Below the pieces are notes generated by a model. That model worked only from the letters and a program-made list of their open reading frames with translations, searched no databases and was not told the DNA's origin. Of a stretch of DNA of 64,000 bases, positions 8,101 through 11,100 are shown one piece after another. The translations under genes were made by a program, and so were the position numbers. The stretch is taken from assembly GCF_002775205.1 (NCBI RefSeq), contig NC_036453.1, positions 15,313,594-15,377,593 on the forward strand, given 5' to 3'. The DNA comes from Xiphophorus maculatus (Eukaryota > Chordata > Actinopteri > Cyprinodontiformes > Poeciliidae). Each line of letters begins with the position of its first letter. Positions within the stretch are counted from its first letter, which is position 1.

Positions 8101-11100
8101 GGAGTGAGGTGTGAAACTGTCGTCATGGTTTCTGACCAGGAGACTAACAGAGCCGGACTCTGTAAAGTTTCACCTCCCTGGTCATCTTCACTGCAGGTGA
8201 CCACCGACCCGCTGCCATGACGATGGGCGCCGCCCAGGCTCCCAACCAACCAGGGCTCGGCCCTGCTGCCCCGGATTCCAATCCAAGGATCTCAGAACTG
8301 GTTCAGAACCAGGAGCAGGGCGACATTTGGAGAGCACAGGTTCTGGAGCTGCTGACCCGGTTGGTTCAGGTCCAGGAGGAGCGAACCAAGCACCAGGCCC
8401 AGGTTGTGCAGCAACTCAGCCTTCTGGTCAACCAGGTGAGTCTAGCCCAGTCAGCCCAGGTAGCCCAGTTTAGCTCAGCTAGGTCCGGTTAAGCTTATCG
8501 TCTAGTTTATGAAATGTTTTGAGTTAATCTGTTAGCTTTAGCTTTAGGTAACCTCCAGAACATCTGGACCACATTTCTGGGCCAGCTTGGTATCGCTCCC
8601 ATAGATGAAGGACCAACAAGAACCTTCTGCTCATGATTGGTTCTGATCCATTCTAACTGAACTCACCTGGACTCACCCTCAGGGCTCCCAGCAAATCCAG
8701 AACCTGCAGAACCTGGCCCGGCACCAGAACCTGCTGGTGGAGAACCACCAGGCTTTACTACTGCAGACGTCACGCATCGCCACCCAGCTGCAGGAAATCA
8801 ACAAGAAACCCACCGCTCTCGGCCCATGAGATCCTCCGACTGCCCACAACCAGCCAATCAGATCTCTGTCTCTACATGCCACCAATCAGATTCTTTAAAA
8901 TCAGACATGCAGTTGAATCTATGTGCTCTTCTGAAGGCTGACCAATTTTTTTAATTAACCAATTAGCCTTTGCGTTTAATAATTAATGAATTGATTGACT
9001 GATTCTGTGATGTTTTAAACTGTAAAACAAACAAACTAACTGTTCACCTGTTCAAGCTCTAAATCGCTTCAGGCTTTAATTGCTCTGTTCCTCTGATTTT
9101 AAATAAAATTTTACATTTTTGCTGCAATTTTGGCTTCCTGTTTATGATGAACTCAACACCTGTGTCTTCACACACCTGTCTGTTTACGTACGGTTCTGCA
9201 TAGACTAGGTTTATGTGAACCTGCCAGGCTCGGTGGGTGTTGCCAACACGTTCTGACCTGTGAGCACCACCTGGTGTCGAGCACCACTTGGTGTCCTCAA
9301 GTGTGCGCTCTACCTGTTTCAGGTATTGTTGGTTTACCGGAATTTGTTGTTTCTCCTCGTTTCAGAACCTCCAGGACCAACACTGATCCAATTAAACTCG
9401 ATCTTCCAACCAAACCAGTCAGAGATCATTCTGACTGCCGGCTCTAAGGTCCAGCTCGGTTGCCTTGGTGACGGGTTGGTGAACATGTCCACCACTGCGC
9501 TTCGTCCATTACCGAGGAATTGTCGGAACATCTTGCAGATCAACAGTGTGTCTCCCAGACACACCGGTACGTACCATTGCAGGTACGCCAACCAGAGCCT
9601 GGACCACCTGAACACCTGGATACACCTGTATGTCAAAGGTAAGCAGGCCCCGTGACCTTCCTGTTTATCTCAGTGACATCATTGACATTACCTCATTTCC
9701 ATGATTCTCCTCTGTCAGATCCAGGTAACAACTCTACGGTGTTTGTCACGCCTCGCTCCACACCTAGGTATCCTAAAGAGGGTGACAACTTCCTGTACAG
9801 GTGTCTGCTGACTGACCCGTCTGTCACAGACCTCACCCTCCAGTCAGAGGGTGAGGACAGGGGGCGGGGCCTGCCCCCAGGTATGAATGTCACCTTAGAC
9901 CCTCGAAAAGGAGCCTTGATCAAACATATAAGGAAGACCTTCAAAGGCCGGTACTCCTGTTCGGGTTGGAGGAATGGTCAAGAGTTCCGATCAGAGCCGT
10001 TTGCCCTGATGGTGGCTCCCAGTAAGACACCTGTCTCTTTACACACCTGTCGGACATTACACCTGTCTGTCTATCTGTCTGATGCCCCCGAGTCTCTGCC
10101 TCACCCTCTACCTGTCTGTCTGCAGTGGACCGCCCTCCCTCCGTCGCTGTCAGTCAGGGTGAGTGGGTCCGTCTACAAGGAGAACGGTTCACAGTCACCT
10201 GTCAGAGCAGCAACCCTTCACACAGCTACACCGTCACCTGGACCCACCCACACACAAAGGTGAGCAGCCAGACGTCACTTGTGTCTCTTTGGTCCCGACT
10301 GGCCCACCTGTCTTCCTCTAACAGGTAGTTTGGTTGTTTTAGGACCTGGCAGTCAGCGAAACCACGACCTACGTCAATGGGTACTTTAACATCAGCAGCA
10401 CTCTGACCGTCTCTGCTGTCAACCATCAACACAGCGGACTGTACACCTGTACTGCTGTTGGCAGAGCTGGGGTTGCCACGGTAACCACCCACCTGACCGT
10501 GTTGGGTTAGTAATCAGTCAATACCAAGGCGATGATAACAGATCAGGAAACTGGACCAGATATCTGGAGAAAACCTTCATGCTGTCTTCTTTTCCTCATC
10601 TTCATCAGATCACCCTTACCTGAGGATCTACCTTCAGACTGCCAACACCCAGCAGGTCTCCGATGAGCTGCCTGGCAACTTCAGCAGGGAGGAGATGACT
10701 GAAGAACCAGCGGCTAACGTCAGCTTCGGTTTGGAGGAGCTGCAGAGAGAGCTGGTGTTTAACGGGAGCAGAGGCAGCGGCTACAGGAGGGTGGAGGTGT
10801 TCGAAGGTGGAGACCTGACCCTGACCTTCATCATGGAGGCCTATCCTCCAATCAGACAGCATCACTGGACGACACCGGAACACGTAAACAATGATGGCAG
10901 CAGCATGTATGAGAGGAGCTACACAGCTACCGCCTACAGGTATCCCAACAATTCCACCTTAAAGCTCTGCAGACTTAACAATTTCACTTGAAACCCAAAA
11001 TAAAGACACCATGCTAGTCACGCCTTCATAACCTGAAGTTAATACCACCTTAACTAACCACACCAACTGCACTACCACCTTGGAAAGTCCAATAATCATC

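Follow-up and report, generated by a model that had tools for sequence, protein, structure and literature searches.

The question raised by this locus is whether two short open frames in the first intron of csf1r, which can be spliced together on the strand of the receptor gene, are a gene of their own. The window is the whole stretch of DNA that was analysed, 64 kb (64,000 nucleotides) of the Xiphophorus maculatus genome. Judged from the sequence, the best explanation is a same-strand, single-copy, independently transcribed small coding gene nested in csf1r intron 1, to which we give a probability of roughly 55%. The arrangement is of a known kind; the protein is unrecognised. The features are as follows, with positions counted from the first letter of the window:

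2140..2194, + strand: csf1r coding exon 1, with the signal peptide; it ends in phase 1, which fits exon 2 at 9366
2195..9365, + strand: csf1r intron 1, the host intron, between exon 1 and exon 2
8197..8435, + strand: nested first coding exon, provided that splicing uses the acceptor before 8197; the frame is open back to 8166
8217..8435, + strand: nested codons 1-73, counted from the ATG, which has G at -3
8436..8682, + strand: nested 247-base intron, with a CAG/GTGAGT donor, a branch A at 8656 and a CAG/GG acceptor
8683..8829, + strand: nested codons 74-121 and the TGA stop, from the frame join and the helix model
8830..9125, + strand: putative 3' UTR, mostly A+T-rich, with an approximate 3' end and AATAAA at 9102-9107
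9366..9638, + strand: csf1r exon 2, from the phase fit, the Ig domains and the acceptor

The host gene controls macrophages and, in fish, also yellow pigment cells. From 2140 on, a receptor tyrosine kinase is encoded by a signal-peptide exon, Ig domains and a tyrosine-kinase piece, and a second receptor kinase lies upstream in locus L016. We take the two receptor kinases to be the pdgfrb-csf1r pair. The receptor is read as csf1r because of the phase of its signal-peptide exon, its Ig domains, its kinase piece and the second receptor kinase upstream. Downstream of csf1r, CUB and trypsin domains are encoded by gene pieces at 24169-26304, which are perhaps enteropeptidase-like, and a long open exon carrying a PWWP domain is found at 54642-56303. 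Fish cdx1, pdgfrb and csf1r form one linked group, according to an earlier study (PMC2020491).

The two coding pieces (8217-8435 and 8683-8829, + strand) join in phase and give 121 codons followed by a stop (TGA 8827-8829). The nested unit, 8197-9107, lies wholly within csf1r intron 1 (2195-9365), and both are on the + strand. Another ATG follows at 8223, flanked by A at -3 and by G at +4, and the contexts of both ATGs are rated good. The nested donor is the best-scoring of the 420 GTs in 2150-9365, and the csf1r exon 1 donor has the third-best score. Among the 443 AGs in 2250-9366, the nested acceptor at 8683 ranks 19, the acceptor at 8197 ranks 6 and the real csf1r exon 2 acceptor ranks 2. 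The nested intron contains a TTCTAAC branch site whose A lies 26 bases upstream of the intron's 3' end. The intron length is not divisible by 3, and four in-frame stops lie within it. The translation and the splice ranks bear out the initial annotation in its coordinates, phase, protein length of 121 aa and good splice sites.

The unit had also been credited with its own poly(A) signal ahead of csf1r exon 2, and AATAAA is indeed present at 9102, 273 bases past the nested stop codon. The G+C content drops from 0.54-0.62 near the stop to 0.24-0.38 ahead of this AATAAA. By itself AATAAA is a weak signal, with 73 occurrences on the + strand of the window. Ten of these are within csf1r intron 1, so the further claim that csf1r transcripts must pass a poly(A) signal is true yet unremarkable.

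The strong acceptor before 8197 points to another exon upstream of 8197-8435 in the transcript. This partner could be either non-coding or csf1r exon 1. There is no CpG-rich promoter or CpG island in windows of 7601-8200, where the observed-to-expected CpG ratio is 0.43-0.74.

The nested frame has a coding-like composition, with G+C of 0.71/0.35/0.76 by codon position. The chi-square of this periodicity is 27.0 for nested exon 1 and 26.4 for nested exon 2. These values are reached by none of 5,961 and none of 6,136 windows, respectively, from seven hand-chosen, presumed non-coding stretches. They are likewise reached by 0 of 19,566 and 0 of 19,716 windows from six of 31 loci (L016, L017 and L028-L031), although L016 includes receptor-kinase coding exons. 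Six csf1r exons have a chi-square of only 9.5, 2.6, 1.3, 4.1, 20.5 and 6.4. Here the measure is therefore a poor marker of real exons, and even an extreme value is no proof of coding. The excess periodicity of the nested exons may be partly repeat-borne. The last 72 bases of nested exon 2 alone have a chi-square of 4.2. With exon 2 stripped of its first 24 codons, the joined frame retains a chi-square of 29.4 and a codon score of 18 bits.

The codon score of exon 1 is reached by one of 837 stop-free, presumed non-coding windows, and that of exon 2 by four of 3,100. The nested frame as a whole has 0.24 bits per codon, compared with 0.08-0.38 in the six csf1r exons, which helped to train the score. 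The exon 1 score is not specific to the frame (20.6 in another frame versus 14.7, with stops skipped, and 16.5 on the reverse strand). False positives occur in G+C-rich DNA: the antisense strand of the PWWP exon reaches 85, or 53.5 with a csf1r-only codon table. In a two-exon scan of the + strand, the nested model is 4th, or 5th with the csf1r-only table. The + strand models that outrank it are on csf1r, the PWWP exon and the CUB/trypsin gene region. Four 10-kb control stretches contain no two-exon model with a positive score. The score of the nested model is reached in none of 300 shuffles of 7000-9365, a coarse control in which 276 of the 300 yielded no model whatever. On these sequence measures, with the caveats given, the nested unit passes as an open, coding-like and spliceable frame.

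The predicted protein of 121 aa is 26% Gln/Asn and 15% Leu and has a net charge of 0. Cysteine and N-glycosylation sites are absent from its frame. The hydrophobic period over residues 24-114 is 3.50, and 5 of 5,000 residue shuffles, scored on a coarser period grid, reach this value. The heptad pattern described initially holds for this span and is weaker in shorter parts, where the value is reached by 11 of 5,000 shuffles for residues 38-114, by 111 of 5,000 for residues 36-73 and by 380 of 5,000 for residues 74-114. The two exons were modelled apart, as single chains, with single-sequence AlphaFold. In exon 1 a helix is predicted at residues 23-71 (block mean pLDDT 93-98 for residues 31-70), and in exon 2 at residues 2-40, which is 39 of its 48 residues (mean pLDDT 90.7). 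From these models we infer that the helix would be continuous across the splice junction. The whole of the predicted helical part would be a coiled coil, as a long helix with a 3.5-residue hydrophobic repeat.

No homologue had been recognised initially, and the searches agree. Pfam gives no family for the 121-aa protein up to E 10, and PDB sequences give no significant match (best E 0.056). The PDB matches, an intraflagellar transport protein and then mostly designed helical proteins, were judged compositional. A phage search returned no relative, and neither did viral and prokaryote contigs in a search that reaches close relatives only. Rfam over csf1r intron 1 gives nothing at the gathering score.

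The copy number of the unit was determined in its own genome (704,300,149 bases in 101 contigs), where the window occupies C11:15313594-15377593. Both 8217-9107 and the upstream flank 7755-8216 match only themselves in this 704-Mb genome. Other matches to the nested protein are no better than E 3.95 and 9.92. The same tool readily found repeats elsewhere in the intron. A dispersed repeat at 5750-6200 has at least 42 matches, with 40 of 2,829 candidates scored. It is without a Pfam match, and its frame resembles a worn non-LTR reverse-transcriptase end. A second dispersed repeat, at 6850-7560, has 67 matches, and its end is similar to those of Tc1-like fish transposons. In a csf1r relative on contig C23, a signal-peptide-like exon lies near L017:8305 and an Ig exon follows near 9560, which by a reading of the exon positions puts its first intron at roughly 1.2 kb. 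The Ig exon of this relative (L017:8305-9870) is 32% identical to the window copy over 82 aligned positions. Its intron contains no similar frame, and no match to the nested protein there is better than E 14. The nested gene was therefore either gained on the window copy or lost on the C23 copy.

The word CAGAAC is abundant throughout the window, with 112 occurrences on the + strand and 110 on the other strand, compared with about 14 expected. This simple word is dispersed and gives rise to Gln/Asn-rich frames. The overabundant word CAGAACC makes up part of nested exon 2. Of the ten CAGAACCTG words on the + strand, three lie in this exon; exon 1 contains little of the repeat. Elsewhere in csf1r intron 1, 4571-4711 is a single-copy open frame of 47 aa with Gln/Asn and a G+C pattern of 0.68/0.32/0.72. 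The most periodic 219-base windows of the presumed non-coding set begin at 4571-4598. This piece weakly resembles nested exon 2 (E 10, reached by 41 of 2,000 shuffles). It may be an exon that is unused or used alternatively, or else a repeat effect.

These observations bear on the other explanations of the unit. The frame could be untranslated, an intronic stretch opened by chance from CAGAACC repeats and G+C-rich sequence, or the remains of a recently dead gene. This is what the roughly eightfold excess of CAGAAC, the repeat words in exon 2, the similar single-copy pattern 5' in the same intron and the lower periodicity of the csf1r exons would lead one to expect. The periodicity of the repeat-poor exon 1, which no comparison window matches, does not follow from the repeats, and the signal persists when the first 24 codons of exon 2 are removed. 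The splice sites, branch site and open frame also concur, and we consider a chance or decayed frame unlikely. That the unit is a piece of a transposable element, domesticated or otherwise, is far less probable. The intron does contain dispersed repeats, and the initial annotation had offered a domesticated transposon tail as one origin. Elements of this kind are expected to have multiple related copies in the genome, as the repeats in the same intron do. The nested unit and its flank have no second match, its protein has no other match better than E 3.95, and no inverted repeats bracket it among the 25 of 37 pairs listed for 6800-9400. The idea of a transposon tail is thus made unlikely by the copy number.

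Two further readings place the unit in a longer transcript. It could be the final exon pair of a larger gene whose other coding exons lie upstream in the intron, as the frame open to the acceptor at 8197 would allow, with 4571-4711 as a possible coding-like piece. The likeness of that piece to exon 2 is weak, and 0 of 14 scanned + strand open pieces have a Pfam match (from 52 of at least 35 aa in 2190-9365; one of the 14 is the nested exon 1 frame itself). The chance of a larger gene is slim. The unit had also been proposed as an alternative 5' end of csf1r. A splice from 8435 to csf1r exon 2 was rejected, as exon 2 in that phase stops after six codons. The reverse arrangement, an alternative 3' end, is in frame. 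Exon 1, which ends in phase 1, joins 8197 in the nested frame with no stop. If exon 1 were spliced to 8197 instead of 9366, a secreted 146-aa precursor would end at 8829, with AATAAA at 9102, and the transcript would be diverted from receptor production. The high ranks of the 8197 acceptor and the exon 1 donor are consistent with such a splice. The frame match itself has a one-in-three chance, and two well-placed ATGs within the next 27 bases would be needless in a fusion. A secreted immune protein would not usually lack both cysteine and N-glycosylation sites, although this does not exclude one. We regard an alternative end of csf1r as quite unlikely. Intronic alternative terminal exons are known to yield soluble forms of receptor tyrosine kinases. 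As in those forms, the csf1r-8197 product would take its promoter and signal peptide from the receptor and terminate within an intron, but it would contain the signal peptide only and no receptor domain. It is improbable, though conceivable, that one macrophage and pigment-cell promoter makes two unrelated products in this way, csf1r and, via 8197, a secreted helical rod that is repeat-seeded and lineage-specific. If so, the choice of the 8197 end would trade receptor for rod and tune csf1r output.

Human genes offer a base rate for these readings. In PMC3192792, 31 of 53 same-strand nested coding genes are judged to be probably independent and 22 of 53 to be most likely splice variants of their hosts. 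Our confidence in each reading of the nested unit was guided by these figures, the latter of which favours a csf1r variant. KTI12 in TXNDC12 and CHML in OPN3, from the same paper, are likewise small coding units on the host strand within an intron, and they too could end host transcripts or alter their splicing. Unlike these, the csf1r-nested coding part contains an intron, belongs to no recognised family and is predicted from sequence. The same paper also reports interference of nested genes with host splicing and polyadenylation.

The host intron itself has been described in part. We take the window's csf1r intron 1 to be the counterpart of mammalian intron 2 (the first coding intron), following the CSF1R numbering of PMC6642117. 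The corresponding intron of the orthologous gene in mammals, birds and reptiles carries FIRE, a macrophage enhancer (PMC5719456, PMC6642117). FIRE is non-coding, unlike the coding nested unit, and no relation between them is claimed. In the FIRE survey, no region aligned in the introns of fish Csf1ra (PMC5719456). Intron 1 of cichlid csf1ra is termed relatively large and was left unsequenced in another study (PMC2254590), so the literature consulted neither shows nor excludes a nested gene. Among the papers listed for csf1r and fish intron 1, Xiphophorus csf1r and nested genes, none describes it in its title or in the opening of its abstract.

If the unit is an independently transcribed nested gene, its promoter would lie at roughly 7755-8196, and a non-coding first exon may be joined to 8197. 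Translation would start at 8217 or 8223, and the transcript would be cleaved past AATAAA 9102. The protein would have a disordered N-terminus and an amphipathic helix of about 90 residues, which may self-associate through its 3.5-residue repeat and act as a soluble adaptor or scaffold. The csf1r pre-mRNA would normally lose the whole nested unit together with intron 1. An active inner promoter or the AATAAA may lower full-length csf1r through transcriptional interference, as for human nested genes. A coding unit in this intron that carries splice and poly(A) signals of its own could affect the amount of receptor, and it could complicate knock-outs or reporters built on csf1r intron 1. If the nested gene is lineage-restricted, it would be a tractable case of a coiled coil arising from a genome-wide simple word.
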